Assembly: GCA_902728285.1 (NCBI GenBank)
Contig: CACVBU010000532.1
Coordinates: 1,266,059-1,330,058, forward strand
Source of the DNA: Clytia hemisphaerica
Taxonomy: Eukaryota; Cnidaria; Hydrozoa; Leptothecata; Clytiidae
DNA: 64,000 bases
Direction: 5' to 3'
Shown here: in pieces, positions 515-57,900 of the stretch
Numbering within the stretch: position 1 is the stretch's first letter
Layout: every line of letters begins with the position of its first letter
The notes under the pieces: model-generated
Told to the model about the DNA's origin: nothing
What the model saw: the letters and a program-made list of their open reading frames with translations, nothing else
Database searches by the model: none
Position numbers and translations under genes: made by a program

Positions 515-3500
515 GTGAAAATGAAGTGCAATTCTCATATGAAGTACATTGGGAAGTAAGTGATTTATTGAAAAAAGCAGTTTTACATTTTTGTCTTGTG
601 AAAGTTCTGATAAAATGGCAGTTTTCCTGGGGTAGAAACATTTTGCGAAAAGTAGTGGTAGTCATTAAGGGGCAGACTTATTATTCTCCTTTTGCTTTTT
701 CAGGAAAGTGAGATTCGTTGGTCAACACGATGGGACACTTACCTTCAGATGAGCAATGTACAAGTTCATTGGTTTGCTATCATTAACTCTATTGTCATCG
801 TTCTTTTCTTAACTGGTATGTCGTAAGGCTCATTCATCTTTTCTAATATATTTATTTTCATTGTTTCTTGAAAGTCAATTTTATATGTTTGTATTTATAT
901 TTTGTTTACTCAGGTCTTTTGGCTATGATCATCATTCGAACGTTACGGAGGGATATCGCAAACTATAACAAAGACGATGATTTAGTAAGCATCTAACTTC
1001 CTAAGTATTCATTCCTATTTTTTGAAGTTTTGAATTTCAATTTACTTTCATTTTAAATTTTGCTCACAATAAGAGACGTGTGTTATTTTAATTTTACTTC
1101 TCTTTTGTAGGAAGAGGCCTTGGAAGAGACTGGATGGAAATTAGTCCACGGTGATGTCTTCCGTCCACCACGCTATCCCATGATTTTATCAGCTCTCATT
1201 GGTTCTGGTGTTCAAGTCTTTTGCATGGTCCTTATCACTATTGGTATATTTCTTTTCTTTCTCCAAAAAAGCAACATCTTTAGAAGAACTGTTTAGCTTT
1301 TACTCATAGTTTTTACAATGATTATTGATCAAATACTATCCCTCAATATAAATCTTCTGAATTCGTTCTTGGCTGTCTGTGTATTGAACTTGATTTTGTA
1401 GTAAATTTATTGATTATCGGAATAATACATAACAGTCTCTTAAACTGGAACCTATATGACTCGAATGTCTCCTTAACTGGGACAAGTTTTATCGTCCCAT
1501 CAGTTAGCCCTTAACACCCTATAAACCTTGCTCTATATCACAAATTTGTTTTCCCCGTGTGTGCTCGAGTTATGGAGTCTTCACTGTACTTTGTATTTCT
1601 AACACTATTTTTTTGTTACTTTAGTATTTGCCATGTTGGGTATGTTATCACCAGCGAGTCGTGGAAGCCTGGCGACTGCCATCATCTTCCTCTACGTCTT
1701 CATGGGGTAAGTGGTCCATAACTTAACCCAAGGGAAACTGATGCATAAATGGTGCCGGGTGGATGCAACCAATAATGGTTCTTTTCCAAACTTTTTAAAT
1801 ATCCTCAAAGTCACAAAAGTTCATCTTGTCATTGTAAGGGCTCAAAAATCTCGAGAGTAGTAATTCAATGCAATTTCTTGAATATGGACGAACATTTGAA
1901 ATTCAATGATACAAACATTCTTTTTGTTCTTCACTTTAGAACTTTTGCTGGATATTATTCTGCACGTTTGTATAAAACATTGAAGGGACTTCACTGGAAA
2001 CGCGCTGCTTTTACTGTGAGTATTTTATTTTGAACTCCCCTTTATCATCATATGTCGATGGAAGTTCTCCTATACACATGGACCTTTATTGGTTTTGAAA
2101 CTGTTTATTATTTACTGTGTGTGTCATTGGTACAATACAGCAATAGAAGTGTACAGCAATCTAAAGACACTCGTACTGATTAACCGATCTTTTCCACCTA
2201 TAGACTGGTTTATTGTTCCCTGGAATCGTCTTCTCCATCGCGTTCTTCCTGAACTTCTTCTTATGGGGAAAACAATCATCGGGTGCTGTAAGTTCACTAT
2301 AACTCCTCAAAGCAAAGAATGCAAAAACATATTGAGTGCGTTTTATATATTTTTCTTTCACTATACACCTTTTAACTGAGTTTTCAGTGGGGACTTTTCA
2401 TGTGAATCTCAAATCAGTCTCAAGTCTACTATGAAAATAATATTAAACGGTTATTCAAAAAAAGAATGAAAGTCGTCACTTTTCTTGGCCATTCAATGGA
2501 TAATGTGTAACCCCTTTCTATTCCACGGTTGACTAATGATTTATTTTGTTCTTTCAGATACCATTTACCACGATGATTGCTTTATTTTGCTTGTGGTTCG
2601 GCATTTCCATCCCTCTTGTTTATCTTGGCTACTTCTTTGGATACAGAAAAGCTGTAAGTTCGCCCAGAAAGAAGACTTTTGATAAATTTCTTTCTCTTGT
2701 AATAGTAGCTCGATCTTGATTGTTGGATGATTTTATCTTTTTCAGCCATACACACATTCCGTACGAACCAATCAAATTCCAAGACAAGTGCCCGATCAAG
2801 TTTGGTACATGCACCCTTTTATTGGGTAAGTTGAATCCTATGTTCTTGAAGACGAATTTTCGTGCGCTTCGGTTACCTTGTTTGGACCAAAGATTAGCAC
2901 TTACTCTGTAAACAACAACAAATTTACTGCCTTCACTGCAACACATAATTAATATTATTTAATTGTTGCTTTTCCTTTCTTCTCCGTAGAGTTCTGATGG
3001 CTGGCATTTTACCGTTCGGAGCTGTCTTCATTGAACTGTTCTTTATTTTAACGGTAAGTTTTTTTTTGGACCTACCCCGGTGGGGTGGGGGTCCTATAAA
3101 TTAACCTTTGTCCGTTCGTCCGTTCGTTCGTTCGTTCGTTCGTTCGTTCGTTCGTTCGTTCGTTCGTTCGTTCGTTCGTTCGTTCGTTCGTTCGTTCGTT
3201 CGTTCGTTCGTTCGTTCGTTCGTTCGTTCGTTCGTTCGTTCGTTCGTTCGTTCGTTCGTTCGTTCGTTATTAGCTTTCCTCGTGATTGGCTCATTAGTTT
3301 TTCTGATTTTTTGCACAAAGATGTGTAACTATAAACCCTCGAATGTGACGGAGCCCGATTTTCGGAAAAAAAAATTTTGGATAAATTTGGGCCAAAAAAC
3401 GGCTAAAAACGGGTTTTTTGGACTTTGTGAAAAATTGGATCATTAATTTTTTCTGATTTTTTGAATAAAAGTAGGGTACCATCATAGATAAAAGATGGCT

Positions 3501-6807: not shown

Positions 6808-6964
6808 AAATGAAGTTTCCGACGGACGAAGGGAGTTGGAAACGGATTTCCTTACGGTTTGGGAACGAGTTTGTCATGTGTAGCGTGTGTCAATAAAAAT
6901 GGTAGCATTTTTCATTATCGCCCTCGGCTCACTTGAACATCTGTGCAGTTTTCATCATCAAAAA
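6808..6964 (+). repeat. Split direct repeat A1 (5' end of retrotransposon)
   Basis: A 157-bp segment matching A2 at 11215-11371. It starts at AAATGAAGTTTCCGACGG and ends in the CATCATCAAAAA run. It overlaps the first potential gag ATG at 6899. Confidence 0.93.
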
Positions 6965-6985
6965 GGCATCATCTATCACAACAAA

Positions 6986-7633
6986 ATGTCTATTACAGAA
7001 CAGATTAATACAGCGATCAAAGATGCATTGGCTCAATCTTTAGGGACGATCGTTGAAGAAACTACGAAAGAAGTCAAAAGATCCATGCAAGACGATGTAA
7101 CAGATACAATCGTCAAAAAAGTAAGACAAGAACAAGTGCCGACTTTCAAGAAAAAATTTAACTCTGATCAGTACAAGCATACTAAAGTCATGGAAAAGAT
7201 TATGTCAAGAATCAACAGCAATTTAGAAGCAAACGACATTACAAAGGCCAAAGAGAGCACCTCAGAAGGTATGAAAGAAATTTATAAAAGACAAAAGTTG
7301 ATACAAATAGCAGATAGGGAAGAGGATGGCTGGGAGGTTATTAAATGCTATCAGTCAGATAATTTAGCATCTGATTCTGAGGATGAAAAGAGACTAAATA
7401 AATCGAGAAGACAAGCCAAACAAAACAAAAAGGAAGCAAGAAGTAGGAGGCTCAATTACAGAAAAAAGTTTGATCAAAATGGCTCAAGAGATTCCTCAAG
7501 AGATTACACGTCAAACTCATTTTATTCTACTAGATACCCACCCAAAGACAGATCATGTTATTACTGTGGGAAGGAAGGACACTTTCAGTACAACTGCCCA
7601 GTCAAAAGATCAGACCTCAATAAAGGACACTAG
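6986..7633 (+). CDS. Gag-like protein of the retrotransposon
   Basis: An uninterrupted frame with a C-terminal CCHC zinc knuckle (CYYCGKEGHFQYNC, pattern C-x2-C-x4-H-x4-C) and a basic, lysine/arginine-rich region before it. The N-terminal half is a charged, probably helical coiled stretch. The frame is open from 6887. The first ATG (6899) is inside repeat A1, and the ATG at 6986 just after A1 is the more likely start, giving 215 residues. Expected role: nucleocapsid/RNA packaging. The following RT frame overlaps the last 164 nt in another phase, so RT would need a frameshift or reinitiation. Confidence 0.8.
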   Translation: MSITEQINTAIKDALAQSLGTIVEETTKEVKRSMQDDVTDTIVKKVRQEQVPTFKKKFNSDQYKHTKVMEKIMSRINSNLEANDITKAKESTSEGMKEIYKRQKLIQIADREEDGWEVIKCYQSDNLASDSEDEKRLNKSRRQAKQNKKEARSRRLNYRKKFDQNGSRDSSRDYTSNSFYSTRYPPKDRSCYYCGKEGHFQYNCPVKRSDLNKGH

Positions 7634-9551
7634 GGATTACGATTTTAAAGAAAAATGTAACGAAATTTCAGTATTTGGTCGTCTAAAGACATGTTCAATT
7701 TTTTGGAAAAATAATTTACACGTTTCAAATTTTATTCAAAAGATTATCGACGAAGGCTATTTGATTCCATTTAAGAGTGTTCCACCTGCATTTTTTGCCA
7801 AAAATAACAAGTCCAGTCTCGATAATTCAAATTTCGTCCAAGACGCAATCAAATCGCTATTGTCAAAAGGATGTATTTCTGAAGTTTCCGATATCCCCAA
7901 GTGTTGTAATCCATTAACAGTTGCAGAAAGAGATTCCAAGTTACGTTTGGTACTAGACTTGCGTCACGTTAACCAATTTGTTGATAACCAAAAATTCAAA
8001 TACGAAGATCTGAAAACTTTTGCAGAGCTTTTCGATCAAGACGATTTCTTTATCACTTTCGACTTAACCTCTGGATACCACCACGTTGATATTCATCCTG
8101 AACATAAAAAAATATTTAGGTTTTCACTGGCTCTTTCCTGACGGACAAACTAAGTATTTCATATTTAATGTTTTGCCATTCGGACTAAGCTCGGCATGCT
8201 ACATTTTTACAAAAATATTGAGACCGTTTATTAAAAAATGGAGATCAGAAGGGATTAAAAGTATAATTTTTATAGACGATGGTATTTGTGGGGGAAGAGG
8301 TTTGCAGTTCGTTGAATCCATAGCCCTTAGAATTTTAGAAGACTTAAAGAACGGGGGATGGCTTGTCAACTTCGAAAAAAGTTCATTGATTCCAACGCAA
8401 ATAGGAAAGTGGCTAGGGACTATCATAAATACAAGAACTATGACCTTTCACGTACCAAAAGAAAAAATCGATAAACTTTTGAGAAGGATTAAACTAGTTC
8501 TAAAACAAACCTTTTGCTCAGCCAAGCAACTTTCACGAATTGCAGGTCAACTAGCAGCGATGCATCTTGCTCTCGGTCCAATCGTAAGGCTTTTTACTCG
8601 ATACATTTATCAACTGATCGAATCACGCGTATCATGGTATCATCCAATTTCACTGTCTCAAGGTGCCCTCAACGAATTAAAATTTTGGCTCAAAAACATT
8701 GATTCCAAAAACGGTTTCTCTTTCAAGCCACATCCAACCACATCAAAAATGGTCTTCACAGATGCAAGCAATTTCGGCTATGGAGGTTTTATCGCTGAGC
8801 GTCTAAACAAAGTCATCTGTGTAGGAAAGTTCAGCAAATTCGAAAAAGCAACCAGTTCCACAGCCAGAGAACTTTCAGCGGTAGATTACGTCTTGAAAAG
8901 TTTCGGTCCAAAACTTGCAAACGAAAGTATCCAAATTAACATTGATAATCAAAACGCGTGTCACATCCTTTCTGTTGGAAGTACCAAACCACACTTACAA
9001 TCTTTAGCTCTTGAAATCTTTTACCACTGTATGAAATTCAACATTTCTATGCAACCTACATGGGTCCCTAGAGAGAAAAAAATAAAATTGCAGATCACTA
9101 TAGTAAATACAATGATACAGACGATTGGTCAATAGACAATAAGAGTTTTATTACCGTTTCAAAAAGATATGGACCTTTCACAGTTGATCGATTTGCTGAC
9201 AATTGTAACAGAAAAACAAAGAGATTTAATTCAAAATTCTATTGTCCTGAAACTGAATCAGTGAATTGTTTTACAAACGATTGGAATGGTGAAAATAATT
9301 ATCTTTGTCCACCAACCAACCTGATTGGCTCAACGATAAGACATCTTAAAGTTTGTAATGCTTCTGGGACTCTTATCGTACCAGTTTGGCCATCAGCTTA
9401 CTACTGGCCAATCATTTTTCCACGACAAATCATCGCAAGTTTCGTAAAAGACATTTTTATTTTTGAACCTTTTTATACTTCAATCTGTAAGGACTCTGTA
9501 TTTAATGGCTATGCAAAATTTAAGACAATGGCTTTAAAGATCAAATTTTAA
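7470..9551 (+). pseudogene. Reverse transcriptase-RNase H polyprotein, two frameshifts
   Basis: Three consecutive frames (7470-8141, 8086-9135, 9261-9551 with upstream extension) together make one DIRS/Ngaro-type pol. RT motifs: RLVLDLRHVNQFV, FDLTSGYHHVDIH, LPFGLSSACYIFTK and the active-site variant FIDD. RNase H motifs: FTDASNFGYGG and, after the second shift, an ADHYSK end. The last part (TVDRFADN, NYLCPP, VPVWPSAYYW) is the C-terminal block typical of this clade. Shift 1 lies in the A7 run near 8105-8111 and shift 2 in the A-run near 9075-9083. Both homopolymer shifts may be real mutation, sequencing error or, less likely, recoding. As read, the protein is not translatable in one frame. 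Confidence 0.85.
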
Positions 9552-9675
9552 GAAGGAAAGAACGTCAAATTTAATTTCTATTTTATCTTCAAGTTTTTCA
9601 GTATGTTTAAACAGGTAAAAAGTAACTTAACATTTCATTTGAGATGCATACAGGCATTTTATTTATCTAATAAGT

Positions 9676-9872
9676 AGACACCCCTGAACGGAGGGCTTTC
9701 TTAGCCGACAAAGTAGACACTCCAGGACGGAGGGCTTTTTAAGCCAACAAAGTAGACACTCCTGTACCCTGTACGGAGGGCTTTTTTAGCCAGTAAAGTA
9801 GATACTTCTGTGAAGGAAGGGCTTATCTAGCCGATAAAGTGGATACTCCTAAAGGGAGGGCTTTCAGCCAGA
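9676..9872 (+). repeat. Minisatellite inside the retrotransposon
   Basis: Five imperfect units of about 37-46 bp start near 9676, 9713, 9752, 9798 and 9839. Each has the pattern GTAGACACTCC ... GGAGGGCTTT ... AGCC. It lies in the noncoding gap between the RT/RNase H block and the recombinase. Confidence 0.85.
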
Positions 9873-10021
9873 AGATCATTTTTATTTTTCTTCGATTGAA
9901 ATTCCTTTTCAGTAATTAAGGAAAATCGAAAATATTTTAGAACCAAAGTAACCAGTCTTCTGCGTTTGGTTTTCTCCAGCAAATTAATATTTTAGGCTCA
10001 ATATGGTCAACCGTTGCAAAC

Positions 10022-10993
10022 GTGAAAGACGACAGTATTAGAGAGCTCGCTGTATCTCTTCCCGACGTAGTTATTGCAGCAAGAGCAAAGTCAACCACAT
10101 CGAAATACCAACGAGCATGGTCAAACTGGTTGGATTGGTGTAAAGATAAAGAAGAAATCATGCCATTTCCAGCAAACCCCTTTTACGTAGCAATCTACCT
10201 GAACTTCGTATTGAAAACTTCGAAGAAGAGTGGTACATTAACAACAGCCTTCTACGGCATCAGATGGGGTCATCACGTCAACGGACTATACTCTCCTACC
10301 GACCACCCATTCGTGAGTATGACATACGAAGGTACGTTACGACTTTGTGAAAAGAAGCCGAAGAATCCTAAAGAACCTATAACGCCAGAAATCCTCAAAC
10401 ACTTAATTAAGACTTTCGATTCAGAATCATTAATGAGCTTACGTTTTCTTTTGATTTGCTCCTTGGGCTTTTTTGGCTTCTGCAGAATAGATGAACTATT
10501 AACCGTACAGTTGAAGGACGTAACAATAAAATCAGCCCACCTCGAAATTTTTCTAGAAATCTCCAAAAGTGATCAGCATCGTGATGGTAATACAATTTAC
10601 GTTTCAAGAAATGAGAACACCAAATTTTGCCCCGTGAACTTAGCAGAAAGATTTTTATCGCTTTCAAACGTATCCTTAACATCCAACCCTGAATGTTTTT
10701 TAGTTCCAAGATTGATTAAAATCAAACAAGGTCACAAGATCCATTTATCCGAAGGAATTTCTTACACGAGAGCAAGGGAAATATTTAAAGAGAAAATGGA
10801 GGAGGCTGAAATTAAAGGCAATTTTGGTTTACATAGTCTTAGATCAGGTGGTGCATCTGCTGCCGCTCAAAACAACGTCAACGAAAGACTGATTTCAAAA
10901 CATGGTCGTTGGGCGTCCGACAGGGCTAGAAATTCATACATAAAAGACTCTATCGAGTACAGGTTAACAATTAGTCGCCAATTGGGAATCTAA
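10022..10993 (+). CDS. Tyrosine recombinase of the retrotransposon
   Basis: An intact frame of 323 residues with a SAM-like N-terminal domain and a phage-integrase-type catalytic domain. Catalytic residues can be placed: Arg in GFCRIDELL, His-x-x-Arg in HSLRSGG, the His/Trp of KHGRW, and the nucleophile Tyr in NSYIKD. Expected role: integration of the circular DNA copy by site-specific recombination at a short core. The frame is open from about 9943 with no in-frame ATG before the domain. Position 10022 is a GTG, so the true start (spliced, shifted or upstream) is unresolved. Unlike RT, this gene shows no break. Confidence 0.9.
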   Translation: MKDDSIRELAVSLPDVVIAARAKSTTSKYQRAWSNWLDWCKDKEEIMPFPANPFYVAIYLNFVLKTSKKSGTLTTAFYGIRWGHHVNGLYSPTDHPFVSMTYEGTLRLCEKKPKNPKEPITPEILKHLIKTFDSESLMSLRFLLICSLGFFGFCRIDELLTVQLKDVTIKSAHLEIFLEISKSDQHRDGNTIYVSRNENTKFCPVNLAERFLSLSNVSLTSNPECFLVPRLIKIKQGHKIHLSEGISYTRAREIFKEKMEEAEIKGNFGLHSLRSGGASAAAQNNVNERLISKHGRWASDRARNSYIKDSIEYRLTISRQLGI

Positions 10994-24033: not shown

Positions 24034-27000
24034 TTATAATTCAAAACTAAAATGTGTGTCTTTACCAGTCAACCTCTTGTAAACCGCAGCAAATGTATCG
24101 AGCTAAAACAAAAAGACATAGCATGTTTTTAACATATTCACACTGACAAATTCATTTGGTTCCGAAAATGTGGATTTAATGACTCAGAACGATTGCCTGT
24201 CACCATAAAATGTAAGACTGGGGCGGCAATACGATTCATCATCGGGCAAAGACTGCAAGAATTATCTCGCAAAACCAACCCCTCCCCTGGTTGAAGAACA
24301 AAGCATAAGACTCAGAGCGATTGCCTGTCACCATAAAATGTAAGACTGGGGCGGCAATACAATTCATCATCGGGCAAAGACTGCAAGAAGTTTCTCGTAA
24401 GACCCCTCCCTAGTTAAAAACAAAGCAAAGGACTCAGAACGATTGCCTGTCACCATAAAATGTAAGACTGGGGCGGCAATACGATTCATCATCGGGCAAA
24501 GACTACAAGAAGTTTCTTGTAAGACCCCTCCCTAGTTAAAAACAAAGCAAAGACTCAGAGCGATTGCCTGTCACCATAAAATGTAAGACTGGGGCGGCAA
24601 TACGATTCATCATCGGGCAAAGACTGCAAGAATTATCTCGCAAAACCAACCCCTCCCCTGGTTGAAGAACAAAGCAAAAGACTCAGAGCGATTGCCTGTC
24701 ACCATAAAATGTAAGACTGGGGCGGCAATACAATTCATCATCGGGCAAAGACTACAAGAAGTTTCTTGTAAGACCCCTCCCTAGTTAAAAACAAAGCAAA
24801 GGACTCAGAACGATTGCCTGTCACCATAAAATGTAAGACTGGGGCGGCAATACGATTCATCATCGGGCAAAGACTGCAAGAATTATCTCGCAAAACCAAC
24901 CCCTCCCCTGGTTGAAGAACAAAGCAAAAGACTCAGAGCGATTGCCTGTCACCATAAAATGTAAGACTGGGGCGGCAATACGATTCATCATCGGGCAAAG
25001 ACTGCAAGAATTATCTCGCAAAACCAACCCCTCCCCTGGTTGAAGAACAAAGCAAAAGACTCAGAGCGATTGCCTGTCACCATAAAATGTAAGACTGGGG
25101 CGGCAATACAATTCATCATCGGGCAAAGACTACAAGAAGTTTCTTGTAAGACCCCTCCCTAGTTAAAAACAAAGCAAAGGACTCAGAACGATTGCCTGTC
25201 ACCATAAAATGTAAGACTGGGGCGACAATACAATTCATCATCGGGCAAAGACTGCAAGAAGTTTCTCGTAAGACCCCTCCCTAGTTAAAAACAAAGCAAA
25301 GGACTCAGAACGATTGCCTGTCACCATAAAATGTAAGACTGGGGCGGCAATACAATTCATCATCGGGCAAAGACTACAAGAAGTTTCTTGTAAGACCCCT
25401 CCCTAGTTAAAAACAAAGCAAAGGACTCAGAACGATTGCCTGTCACCATAAATAAAGTCTGGGTGGCAATAGAATTTATCATAGCAAGAAAAAAGATCTT
25501 GCAATGAAATCTGATTCATTGTATCAACCTTGCAATTGTCAGAACGATTGCCTGTCACCATAAAATGTAAGACTGGGGCGGCAAAAGAATTCATCATTAT
25601 TGAAAGGCATGACAAGATTTTAGTGTTTTACAATTTCCTCTCTTTTACCTGATTTTTGACGTAATCTTTGTTCGTAATTTATAAGAACAGAAATCTTGTC
25701 TGTAGTCTAAAGTTCTGTATTTAAACAACTTTTGATAAGAACATTTTAATTCAAACTTCTAATTTCGATGATTTTTCCAGTTCATAACTATGTAAATATT
25801 TCAGTTTTCTATGAAGATGTTGGAGTAAGCTTTCATTGACAAAATGTTGGGAAAAAGATGTTTTAACGACTTTAAATGCTCTTGCACATCTCTGACTTAC
25901 TTAAAATTTTCTTATAAAAATGCCAGCTGCACAGAAAGAGGAGTTAATCTTGTTTACTTGAAAGAACATAGAAAACATATCACACAAGCTACGATATAAA
26001 TTTTGAAAAAGAGGGCTTTTTTAAATGGCCATAGAAAGTGATTGAAAAAAATCTCTTGAAGTGAGATAGCTCATTTTAATCTCCCTGGAATAATTTTTCC
26101 AAAAATTAAAAAAAAAACAATACCTAAAATCAGACCAGACGTCCCCTTTAAATGTCCAAAATGTTTTCAGCTGTAAAATAGAGAAGTCTTTTTTTGCCCT
26201 AGGTAACCTCATTTTAATATATTGCAGTGTATTGTTCTAACCCTAAGTTTTTATTATCTGGCACCCCACAGTATTGTGTACTTCAGAATTTATTGCCTCT
26301 CACCACAAGTTTAAAGCTATCTGACTGGGGCGGCAATATAATTCATCACCAGTAACACCTGAGCAATACCGGAGACGAATTGTTGGGCAGCTTCATCTAC
26401 AGCACTTTGACTTAATTATTTAAGAAGTTACCACCCAAATCTAAAACATTTCTATCACATATTTACCTTGTGTTCAACATTAGTTTGTTGGGCTTTTTCT
26501 AAAACAACTTTGACCAATCTGGAGGCATCCAACTTGACACGTACGCTTTTACCGACAATTTCTGATGGGTAAACTAAATCTTCAAGGATTGAATCATGTA
26601 CCGCAGTCAAAGTGCGACTAAATGCAAGAAAGTGAATTTTATGCTATATCAATAGCAAGGAAAAATGAACCAGTAAACTTTCAATTTATAATTCAATCCC
26701 TGATTCTTTTGTTGACAATTTAGACGAGACCAAGTTAATCTATTCCCCAACAACACCTGTTTTTTTCCAAAATCGGAAAAAACTAATTTTGAAATTGCAA
26801 AGCTGAAGAACGGACTTGAAGTTTTTTGCAGATATTTAAAAAAAGTTAGAAAAGTGAACAAATTTATGGAAATGACTCACTCAATGATAAAGACGAAAAA
26901 ACAAAATGTCAAATCGTTTAGGTCGTGACCCATATTTTTCTGAAGGTCTTCCCATAGAACAAATTAAATTTGTCATGAAAGTTTTTTTCAATCCAATTTC

Positions 27001-51900: not shown

Positions 51901-54900
51901 AGTAATTTTTTTGCTGTTTAAGGGTAAAAAACTCTTCTCGCTTCTAAAATACTTTCTACGTAAAATGCTTTAAGAGGTTTCACAGGAACCAAAGGCTATC
52001 GCGCTGCATGAATGAACTTGTAGAACTCCTTATAGGGGCATATCTTTGGTAACGAAGCACTTACCAGATCATAAAGCATTGTTCTGAGATCTGCCCATAC
52101 TTTATATGCATTCTCACCACTTAATCCTTGCTTGGCGAATAAATCTTCAACTAAACGTTTGTAGATGTTGAAATTCTAAAAGAGAAACAATGATTATTGA
52201 CGTGAGAAAAAATTCATCGTTTTCAATTAAAGCTTTATGAATCTCCAATGGAGAATAGCAGTAGGGGGCCATTCTTTAGGGCCCGTGACAACAATTTCCG
52301 GAGTGTAATTTTTTTTGATCATTCGAAAGAAGAATGTATTTATAAAACTTTTTTGAGAGGGAGTAAATTAATTAGGTCCAGCATTTTTTTATGGGGAAAA
52401 GACTGACGTCACAAGCAAAAACCCTTGGGACCCGAAATTTGACGAAACCAATTATACCATTGGAAAGCTCTCGAAAAACGACATAGAGGACATGGTCAAT
52501 TTTGTGTTTTAGCGACTTTGAAACTTCGTTCAAAAAATTTCAAAAAAAATTCCATTCCGGAAATTGTTGTCACGGGCCCTAAAGAATGGCCCCCTACTAT
52601 ACATCATATTTTCATTACTTTCTTGACGTAGACAAACCTGTGGATTGGCAGGTGCGCCATGTTCGACGAACAAACGCAAGGCTTTCACTTGATCACCATC
52701 TTTGATCAAATTCGCTGCATACAAAGCCACATACTTTGATAAAACTTCGAAACTCTGAAGAAAAATAAACATTGGGAAAAGTTGAGTAAAAAACATCATT
52801 GATATGATATTCCTATTCCTTGCGTTTTTAACCAAATAATCAAATCACAGTATTATGTTTAAAGGTCGGACAGGGTTAGGAAGCAAAACAAAAGCTCCTG
52901 GTTCTACTAGGGTAAAACTCGCCACACTTTACAGCTAGCCAGATGAAGAAGAAACAATAATACTTGGAATAGGGTAGATCGTCAACTACCATTTTTAGCA
53001 TGATGTCAAAAAATTCAAAGTGTAATATTTTTTGTGAAAATTTAATCTATTGTAAGACATTTTGCGCAATTTTTAACCTCCTAGGTCAAAAATCCAGCAT
53101 TCCCCAGGGGGGTCTTTGATTCGCACTAAAGCGAAAAATGAGTAAAATGGCACTTTTTGCCCATTTATAAGACTATGAAAGCCCAGTAAAGGGTCAAAAT
53201 GGTTTCTAAATGGTGTCTTGTACTAATATTCAACATAAAAAGACAAAATAACCCCAGCGAGATTGCTCAATGTTTCAATTTCAAGCTGAAAAGGCTGATT
53301 TTCTCCGATTCTGGGTAGCAAAATACATGAAAGCAGCATTTTTGAGGACCCACAACTTTTAAACTTTTTAAGGTACACACTTGAAATTTTCAGTAATTAA
53401 ACACTTCAGAGAAAGCTCCAGGAAAAATCAAACTTAAGTTTTCAAAAACTTCCTATAAATCCATAATGGCGCCCTAGAAATTGAGTTTTCATGCTAAATG
53501 CCAATATTTCAAGCTAAAACTTGGTTTTCTTGGGTTAAAATCTCAAAAATGGTTTCAAATGGTGTCCTGAAATCTTTGGGTGTTGAAAGTATTCTGGAAA
53601 AACTCTGGGAGAATCAAAATGGTTTAGGTTAGAAATCTACCAAAGTCCGCCATTATGGAATTGCTTTTCCACTTAAAACGCGATATTTAGAGTTGAAAGT
53701 CTAATTTTCTCAGGCTAAAATCTCAAAAATGGTTTCAAATGGTGTCCTGAAATTTTTTGGTGTTGAAAGTATTCTGAAAATACTCTGGGAGAAACAAAAT
53801 GTTTTGGGTCAGAAATTTGCCCAAGTCTGCCATTATGGTATTGCATTTCCCACTAAAACGCGATATTTAGAGTTAAAGTCTGATTTTCTCAGGCTAAAAT
53901 CTCAAAAATGGTTTCAAATAGGGTCCTGAAATTTTTTGGTGTTGAAAGTATTCTGGATATACTCTGGGAAAACCAAAATGGTTTGGGTCAGAAATTTGCC
54001 AAAGTCTGCCAATATGGTATTGCTTTTCCTACTAAAACGTGATATTTATTGTTAAAGTCTAATTTTCTCAGGCTTAAATCTAAAAAATGGTTTCAAATAG
54101 GGTCCTGAAATCTTTAGGTGTCGAAAGTATTCTTGGAACAATCAAGGAAAATCACAGTGGTTTACAATGGACATATATATGCCAGTCTGCCATTATGAAT
54201 TTTATTTCTTTAGGAAGAACACTCAAGCTTACTCAAAACATTGTGTTTTAGAATGAAATACAATTCCATAATAGCAGACTTTGGCAAATTTCTGACCCAA
54301 ACCATTTTGGTTTTCCCAGAGTATTTCCAGAATACTTTCAACACCAAAAGATTTCAGGACACCATTGGAAACCATTTTTGAGATTTTAGCCTGAGAAAAT
54401 TAGACTAACTCTAAATATCCCGTTTTAGTTGGAAATGCAATGCCATAGTGGCAGACTAGGGCAAATTTCTGACCCAAACCATTTAGATTCTCCCAGAGTA
54501 TTTTCAGAATACTTTCAACACCAAAAAATTTCAGGACACCATTTGAAACCATTTTTGAGATTTTAGCCTGAGAAAATTAGACTTTAACTCTAAATATCGC
54601 GTTTTAGTTGGAAATGCAATGCCATAATGGCAGACTAGGGCAAATTTCTGACCCAAACCATTTAGATTCTCCCAGAGTATTTTCAGAATACTTTCAACAC
54701 CAAAAAATTTCAGGACACCATTTGAAACCATTTTTGAGATTTTAGCCTGAGAAAATTAGACTTTCAACTCTAAATATCGCGTTTTAAGTGGAAAAGCAAT
54801 TCCATAATGGCGGATTTGGTAGATTTCTAACCCAAACCATTTTGATTCTCCAAGAGTTTTTCCAGAATACTTTCAACACCCAAAGATTTCAGGACACCAT

Positions 54901-57900
54901 TTGAAACCATTTTTGAGATTTTAGCCCAAGAAAACCAAGTTTTAGCTTGAAATATTGGCATTTAGCATGAAAACTCAATTTCTAGGGCGCCATTATGGAT
55001 TTATAGGAAGTTTTTGAAAACTTAAGTTTGATTTTTCCTGGAGCTTTCTCCGAAGTGTTTAATTACTGAAAATTTCAAGTGTGTACCTTAAAAAGTTTAA
55101 AAGTTGTGGGTCCTCAAAAATGCTGCTTTCATGTATTTTGCTACCCAGAATCGGAGAAAATCAGCCTTTTTAGCTTGAAATTGAAACATTGAGCAATCTC
55201 GCTGGGGTTATTTTGTCTTTTTATGTTGAATATTAGTACAAGACACCATTTAGAAACCATTTTGACCCTTTACTGGGCTTTCATAGTCTTATAAATGGGC
55301 AAAAAGTGCCATTTTACTCATTTTTCGCTTTAGTGCGAATCAAAGACCACCCTGGGGAATGCTGGATTTTTGACCTAGGAGGTTAAAAATTGCGCAAAAT
55401 GTCTTACAATAGATTAAATTTTCACAAAAAAATATTACACTTTGAATTTTTTGACTTTGCCATTTGACGATCTACCCTACTTGGAAAATCGAACATCATT
55501 GTAATGGTAAGATGAGTAGGGGTAATACCTGTTGCTCAGCTTCTTGGATACATTTATCCCACAAGCCTTGCTCCACATACATGTCAAGTGCTGCGATCAC
55601 ATCCACGTTGATCAGCTACAGAAAAAAAGAGGGGAAAAGAAATTTTAAAAAAGGGAGGCAAGAGAAGTCATACGCAAAACATATCAATAATGTGCTATCT
55701 TTTGGAATTTTTTTTTCACGATATCAAATTATATTTGGTCTTTGATGAAATCGTTTTTCTGGCAACCATGATATTGAATATTATGATGTAACAGATGGTG
55801 ACAATTGCATAACATGTTAAAAGATATGAAGTGAAGAGACCTCGTCAGTCTTATTCTTCTTCTTGAGATATTTCACATATTCTTCTTCTACGTGTTCTTC
55901 GTACCTTTTGAAAAGAAGAGGAAATTGTTCAAATGAAAATCTTATGAAAGACAAAACGAATAAAAAAATTTACAATTTATTCATGATATGTTACCCATTT
56001 TACGAAATATTCATCTCAAAGCAAGGTGTGTCATTCAAATATCTCAAAAGTGATAAATCGAGAACATTTTACCAGTGATTAAGCGAAGGGGACGTTGGCA
56101 GATTTGGAAAAGAATTTCTTCAGTTTTAAAAGTTCTATTTTGAGCGATTTCGCCTGTACGAACAAAATAGTTTTTACTTTGGAGCGTAATCCCTTGCGAT
56201 GCTTCTTGCTTGCGTCCATAAATCTCCTTTAACACATGCACTTATTGCTTCACGGTATAATTTGACTGCTTGATACAAATCTGATGCCTGGGTGAAAAAA
56301 ATTGGAAAAAAAATTCATAATTGTAGAGGTGGAAAAGACGTTATTTCAATCCTATCATCGATATACTCATCGAGAATAATTTTCATAACCCTATCTAAGC
56401 TATAGAAGATAGCTATTTCTCAAGAAAGAATTACGAATGTTTTTTTTTTTCCATTCGAGAAGAGAAAATGAAAAAAAACATCGCAAAACTCACAGTTTCG
56501 TAAGCTTGCATTTCCAATAAGCGTTTACAGACTTCGTGGGCAACACTGAGCGCGCGATCTTTTGAGAATTTGATGGCCAGTTCAAGAGCTTTGGTATAGA
56601 CTTCTTCAATGACTGCACTATTCCCTGCCATGTCTTGTGTAATGCGCATGTACAGATCGATTGCACGGTTATACTCGGCCCTAGTCTCCCAATCACGAGC
56701 TTGTGCGATGATACCTTCTGCACCTCTGAAATGAGAAAGGGAATCATTTTATTTTAAAGGTTTGAAAATCGAGCAGAGCAGGTTGCGTAATAAATAATTC
56801 TTTATTTGACCATTTCATACAAAGTGTTTCTATCTGTACCACGGTGGAGCTCTCAATCATTTGAATCTCTTTAACTCTATTGACTCTCTTTCCAACAACC
56901 ATCGCTCGGAAATGAATTAACGTGTACTTACTTATCACCACCACTCTGAGTAGCAATGCGATCGTATTCGTCTTGTAAGGCTGCCAACTACGAAAAGTAA
57001 AGGATCGTTTATTATTGATTGATACAACAGGCATAGACTACGTATTTTACAAAGAAATCTGTTACTGTAATCTTTGAATGCATTTGAGTATACCTGGTGT
57101 GGAACATATTCTTTTGCTATACGAAGTACATCAGGCCAGCGTTGACACTCCTGAAAATAAAATAGTCAAATTTATGAGATGCGTTTGCCGAATGAAAGAA
57201 ATGCTTAACAGATGGCTTAAAATGATTAAGTTTAAACATCATCAGTTCATTGCTTACCTTGTAAAATTTGATGGCTAATTCTGGACGTTGTGCTCTCAAC
57301 AAGAAGCTTTCACCTTCCGTATAATCTTTCTTTTCGAAAGACAAACGGGCTTGACCAATCAGGACGTCGACAAGACTTTCTGGGTCGTAACTCTCTGCCA
57401 CTCTTCTTGCTTCGTCCCAATCTGATTGGTGGATATACCTAATCAACAAAGATTTCAAATCATCGTTTATTTTCTACTAAGATAATGATTTGCAATCATA
57501 AAATTAGAAAACTCACTCAATGCAATGACTTCCCGATTAAAAAAACACGAGCTTTTTACAAATTCATCCCGGTTTTCGCTCGCGTTTTGCTTTAGACTGT
57601 TTAGAGGTTTAATGTCCATGTCGATTCCAATCTATATATTTTGTTCCCTTCAAAGATACAAGACCTACATAAGAACAGCTTCTTTTGGTTTTTCAGCTTT
57701 GATGAATTCGTCTTCGGCATCATTGAAGCGACCTTCATCTTCCAAAAACATGGCTTTCTTTAAGTGGATTTCCATCACCTTCTCCCGCTTAAGCGTTCGC
57801 GCGAGATCAAAAGCAAAGTCGAACGATCTAAGGTGGAAGAGATTTGAAAATTAGTTCAAATGATCCTCTTAGCAGCTATCGAGATAAATAACTTACACTA

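Follow-up and report, generated by a model that had tools for sequence, protein, structure and literature searches.

How the last intron of a ribosomal protein gene came to hold thirteen copies of one box C/D snoRNA, which of the copies are likely to be processed and what the resulting RNA would guide are the questions raised by a locus within the window (the whole 64,000-nucleotide stretch of Clytia hemisphaerica DNA that was analysed). Guide-type snoRNAs of animals typically occur one per intron.

Host intron and snoRNA copies

The exons of RPS7 were located on the minus strand of the window by tblastn with human RPS7, and the last intron of the gene was found to contain twelve intact copies, made up of ten tandem units and two solitary paralogues, as well as a decayed one. 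The features of the gene and of its intron are as follows.

26467..26617, minus strand: RPS7 exon 5' of the host intron (tblastn with human RPS7, 82.7% over 52 amino acids; splice sites read)
24103..26466, minus strand: host intron, the last of RPS7, 2364 nt, GTAAAT...TTTTAG (GT...AG)
24034..24102, minus strand: last RPS7 coding exon, with the stop codon (tblastn with human RPS7; splice sites read)
26283..26349, minus strand: core of solitary copy 2, with C box GTGATGA, guide GCCGCCCCAGT, D' box CAGA, C' box GTGGTGA and D box CTGA
25539..25597, minus strand: core of solitary copy 1, with perfect C and D boxes, the guide of the array, D' box CTTA and C' box ATGGTGA
25427..25482, minus strand: core of the decayed copy, with C box ATGATAA, a guide that is changed and 1 base short, and an intact 3' half
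24181..25423, minus strand: array of ten units of 121-128 bp, start-to-start spacing 121, 122 or 128, no terminal stem in any unit
24184, 24312, 24434, 24555, 24683, 24805, 24933, 25061, 25183 and 25305, minus strand: starts (plus-strand numbering) of the array cores of units 1 to 10, 59 nt each from C to D box
24184..24242, minus strand: core of unit 1, the array unit closest to the 3' splice site, its D box ending 81 nt before the exon

In the direction of transcription the order is solitary copy 2, solitary copy 1, the decayed copy, array units 10 to 1 and then the last exon. All of the copies are on the minus strand, which is the sense strand of RPS7. The initial annotation, which had placed ten tandem 121-128 bp units, one decayed copy and two solitary paralogues in an RPS7 intron on the sense strand of the gene, was thus borne out, as was its view of the ten tandem units at 24181-25423 as a local amplification. 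Tandem Repeats Finder described the array as 10.5 copies of 122 bp with 91% matches, the copy number being that of the genome assembly (contig C373, 1,506,789 bases), and solitary copy 1 is identical to array unit 10 at 57 of 59 letters.

Assignment to the box C/D class also held. The C box (RTGATGA; RUGAUGA in RNA) and the D box (CTGA; CUGA in RNA) were found without mismatch in 12 of the 13 copies, the decayed copy having one mismatch in its C box, and internal D' and C' boxes are present in every copy in degenerate form (2 mismatches in total over the pair). The guide is common to the same 12 copies and is broken in the decayed one, so that the earlier claim of a C box, a D box and a shared guide in all copies stands for the 12 intact copies and fails for the thirteenth. 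A pattern of TGATGA followed after 4-14 nt by CGCCCCAGTC has 12 occurrences in the window, whereas 100 shuffles contained none. The folding stability of whole copies is ordinary (z from -0.96 to 1.76).

When the exact pattern of C box plus guide was sought throughout the 417 Mb genome, 13 places were recovered, of which all but one lie in this intron; reversing the pattern gave a single occurrence. The single place outside the intron lies in coding sequence, presumably of a retrotransposon, and has no Rfam match. DNA similarity searches of the genome were less sensitive, with solitary copy 1 as query missing solitary copy 2, and solitary copy 2 recovering itself alone. By the exact pattern, the last RPS7 intron is the only putative SNORD31 locus found in the genome.

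Family assignment and predicted 28S target

A snoRNA covariance search, which had been suggested as a check, gave a divided answer, with significant matches to SNORD31 and snoU31b whose scores all fall under the gathering cut-offs. In a focused Rfam search space of 2.4 kb, the best scores were 31.0 bits for SNORD31 (RF00089; cut-off 40, E 0.00023) and 33.0 bits for snoU31b (RF01285; cut-off 37, E 0.00067), and all twelve intact copies had a match to at least one of these two models (28.6 bits for solitary copy 2 with SNORD31). No Rfam family reached its curated gathering cut-off in the window. The copies resemble SNORD31/U31 and snoU31b in the guide core CGCCCCAGUC, the C box, the register of D' and the C' and D boxes, the D' box CUGA of Rfam aligning exactly onto the CTTA or CAGA of the intron copies; they differ in their scores below the gathering cut-offs and in the presence of 13 copies in a single intron. 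On the grounds of sequence, the intron copies are assigned to the SNORD31/U31 box C/D family, with Rfam scores that are significant but below cut-off. A plus-strand match to snR51 at 24116-24190 (32.9 bits, cut-off 44, E 0.32) was treated as chance.

The guide is complementary to GGCUGGGGCGGCA of 28S, adjoining D', over 13 bp (-30.0 kcal/mol). Duplex energies were computed with yeast-like 28S letters, which are identical to those of a 28S fragment in the genome itself, where the target site reads GTTTGGCTGGGGCGGCACATCTG. They amount to -30.0 kcal/mol for the guides of the array and of solitary copy 1, -32.5 for solitary copy 2, -27.3 for the U9 guide variant and -16.3 for the decayed copy. The fragment (L037, 1107-2240; Rfam LSU 514.7 bits, model positions 1891-3399 of 3401) is a partial, interrupted copy and may not be a working rDNA unit. 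Dozens of short 28S pieces (at least 40 matches, 78-100% alike) are also scattered in the assembly. At the position of ACC in the Rfam consensus the guide carries GCC, and since this GCC faces GGC in the genome's own 28S fragment, the guide fits the rRNA of its own genome; vertebrate 28S has GGU at this place.

By the rule of five nucleotides upstream of D', methylation is expected at the second G of CUGGGGCGG in 28S, a predicted site for which the CTTA and CAGA forms of D' keep an identical register. Its counterparts among known SNORD31 sites we take to be G4166 of human 28S and G2619 of yeast, the latter served by snR67. As for a possible further guide next to the D box, on its upstream side, its target letters were absent from the 10 kb partial-28S locus at up to 3 mismatches (0 versus 0.85 expected).

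Terminal stems, intron position and array history

Terminal stems are common in box C/D snoRNAs without being universal. They were measured here by cofolding 15 nt of flank with 5 internal nt on each side (PMC10234308), with the mature ends assumed to lie 5 nt outside the boxes. Such a stem is possible in the two solitary copies only (-12.0 kcal/mol for solitary copy 1 and -8.1 for solitary copy 2) and is absent from the decayed copy and from all ten array copies, which have 0 to 4 inter-strand pairs at energies of -1.1 to -3.3 kcal/mol, in agreement with the initial annotation, which had noted this division between array and solitary copies. Among 2000 random placements in another RPS7 intron (mean -4.8 kcal/mol), the share that was equally stable was 68 to 98% for the array copies, 1.5% for solitary copy 1 and 10.9% for solitary copy 2, whose stem is by itself unexceptional. 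The product of stem length score and energy was -132 for solitary copy 1, -40.5 for solitary copy 2 and 0 to -13.2 for the array; among the low-confidence predictions of SnoBIRD, a product of -25 or lower counts as one indication that a copy is expressed (PMC12309372). Pairing of adjacent spacers into external stems did not reach significance, 33 to 177 of 200 shuffles doing equally well.

The best branch-point-like A downstream of unit 1 lies 55 nt from its D box, or about 50 nt from the assumed mature end. According to work cited in PMC10234308, some C/D snoRNAs without a stem need a distance of 40-50 nt to the branch point, and distance can be offset by a terminal stem. The layout of the intron fits this rule, with stems on the distant copies and none on those close by. 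Against such a rule, that paper places branch-point distance only 23rd of 34 features in human data, and most of its expressed C/D snoRNAs are 100 nt or more away from the branch point. It also describes some expressed snoRNAs without a stable stem, and by this and the low rank of distance the inner units could be expressed.

The spacers of the array are of two types, A (n=4) and B (n=6), in the order A B B A B A A B B B from unit 1 to unit 10. Identity between the types is 0.771 in the spacer and 0.975 in the core. With all units taken together, variable columns number 16 of 63 in the spacer compared with 3 of 59 in the core (Fisher p 0.0023), and 13/63 spacer columns versus 0/59 core columns are fixed between A and B (p = 0.00013), or 2/59 core columns if two type-linked core sites are counted (p 0.0047). 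The A and B spacers show an additional length difference of 6 nt, where the alignment is not unique. Within types, core and spacer are almost equally uniform (identity 0.989 and 0.993 in A, 0.979 and 0.983 in B), with 4/63 spacer and 3/59 core columns variable (p = 1.0).

The conservation of the core during A/B divergence could be due to an old constraint or to gene conversion; if it was constraint, copies without a stem would once have worked, since neither A nor B has one. The evenness within types may be read as recent amplification or as homogenisation. Together, these patterns speak for past function followed by recent, neutral-looking growth.

Two further ideas on the array were tried and rejected. 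Pairing of spacer and guide as a built-in decoy gave duplex energies without significance, since 71 to 177 of 500 shuffles did equally well. An origin of solitary copy 1 by retroposition of a mature RNA is unlikely, because its likeness to the array starts exactly where the C box begins and stops exactly where the D box ends, and the flanks expected of a copied mature RNA are missing. A short hairpin was also observed upstream of each C box (e.g., 24371-24433), in which one pair is G-C, A-C or A-T across units; with z values of -1.58 and -2.18 for A-type and -1.23, -1.14 and 0.64 for B-type spacers, it is a weak lead.

Proposed working of the locus and its known relatives

We propose, with a probability of roughly 0.6, that the intron is a SNORD31 locus whose main producers are the two solitary copies, perhaps joined by unit 1, and whose inner units are recent and poorly processed. 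RPS7 pre-mRNA would be spliced and the intron trimmed, copies bound by core proteins would persist as SNORD31, and the released snoRNA would guide 2'-O-methylation of 28S at the site predicted above. Solitary copies 1 and 2 would be the likeliest producers because they are able to form a terminal stem. Unit 1 may also be productive because it is sited where stem-less snoRNAs reportedly assemble near the branch point. Units 2-10, which have neither stem nor branch-point position, would probably be processed poorly. They would require endonuclease cuts between neighbours or remain in a longer remnant; their origin would be unequal crossing-over that started from two diverged unit types.

The array may instead have been selected for a higher output of SNORD31 per RPS7 transcript, most or all of the twelve intact copies being processed. 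Such a dose effect would suit the perfect C and D boxes and pairing guide in 12 of 12 intact copies, the sole guide change (U9), which still pairs via wobble, a core that stayed 97.5% alike while the A and B spacers fell to 77%, and the lack of any other genomic source by exact pattern. We nevertheless consider it rather unlikely, as the terminal stem is missing in all ten array copies, whose values fall below those of random placements within an intron of the gene, external stems between neighbouring spacers are not significant, and the equal variability of core and spacer within types leaves no present selection on the core visible. The near identity of the units, their mixed A/B order and the decayed unit at the array edge, which fit unequal crossing-over, would also suit growth of a satellite kind, with all array units functionless and the solitary copies alone of importance; however, the A/B split spared the core, which points to ancestors that looked functional unless conversion is responsible, and we regard this reading as improbable.

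That the array copy number was inflated in assembly is scarcely credible: the units are highly alike, but they carry type-specific spacers and scattered single changes and are not exact copies, and unique intron sequence flanks the array on both sides. Another outcome, which we regard as very unlikely, is a sno-lncRNA of some 2.1 kb made from the intron, its 5' end protected by solitary copy 2 and its 3' end by unit 1, bearing up to a dozen SNORD31 snoRNPs. The layout of two snoRNAs as potential ends within one intron is present in solitary copy 2 and unit 1, and sno-lncRNAs arise from introns holding two snoRNAs (PMC11028025). If such an RNA were formed, it would act as a store or trap for snoRNP proteins or for 28S precursors, coupling ribosomal-protein splicing to rRNA modification.

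The locus presents a familiar snoRNA whose arrangement is unusual. There are precedents for snoRNAs repeated in ribosomal-protein genes, for clusters in single introns and for large mammalian tandem arrays. To our knowledge, each mammalian copy of SNORD113/114 and SNORD115/116 lies in its own intron. These eutherian arrays are likewise locally amplified C/D families with subfamilies and homogenisation, but they are large, imprinted and in noncoding hosts, whereas here a housekeeping rRNA guide is repeated within one intron of a protein gene (PMC11028025). The H/ACA-type U17 is likewise repeated in ribosomal-protein genes (Xenopus rpS8 and, reportedly, Fugu rpS7), with one copy per intron over six introns in Xenopus rpS8 as opposed to many in one intron here (PMC7601244). 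More than one snoRNA per intron is likewise described for the Plasmodium RPS27a intron (PFS15 and PFS16, with a common target) and for plant intronic clusters, the former having two copies compared with the twelve intact ones here (PMC2656528). Judged by titles and the beginnings of abstracts, the open-licence literature searched contains no comparable array, with ten units of one rRNA guide sharing an intron, and the portion of a paper on sponge ribosomal-protein introns that was available (PMC3412847) makes no mention of RPS7, U31 or SNORD31. One review expects new snoRNA tandem repeats in understudied genomes (PMC11028025). With twelve intact copies, with and without stems, at varied distances from the splice site and carrying marker variants, the intron offers a natural experiment on the processing of intronic C/D snoRNAs. 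As the sole source found for an rRNA guide inside a ribosomal-protein gene, it also raises a question of dosage.

Elsewhere in the window, a large inverted repeat occupies 53300-55159, with outer arms (53300-53644 and 54815-55159) that are 99% complementary and hold 179-bp tandem repeats; the scan started at 53300, so that the arms may extend beyond. Its sequence suggests an element whose inverted repeats are terminal and whose tandem repeats are subterminal. At 6887-10993, a reverse transcriptase with RNase H (Pfam above cut-off) precedes an ORF whose phage-integrase-type match scores 26.0 of 27.1 bits; the predicted layout is as in DIRS-like elements. The window also contains 39 repeats of CGTT at 3113-3268.
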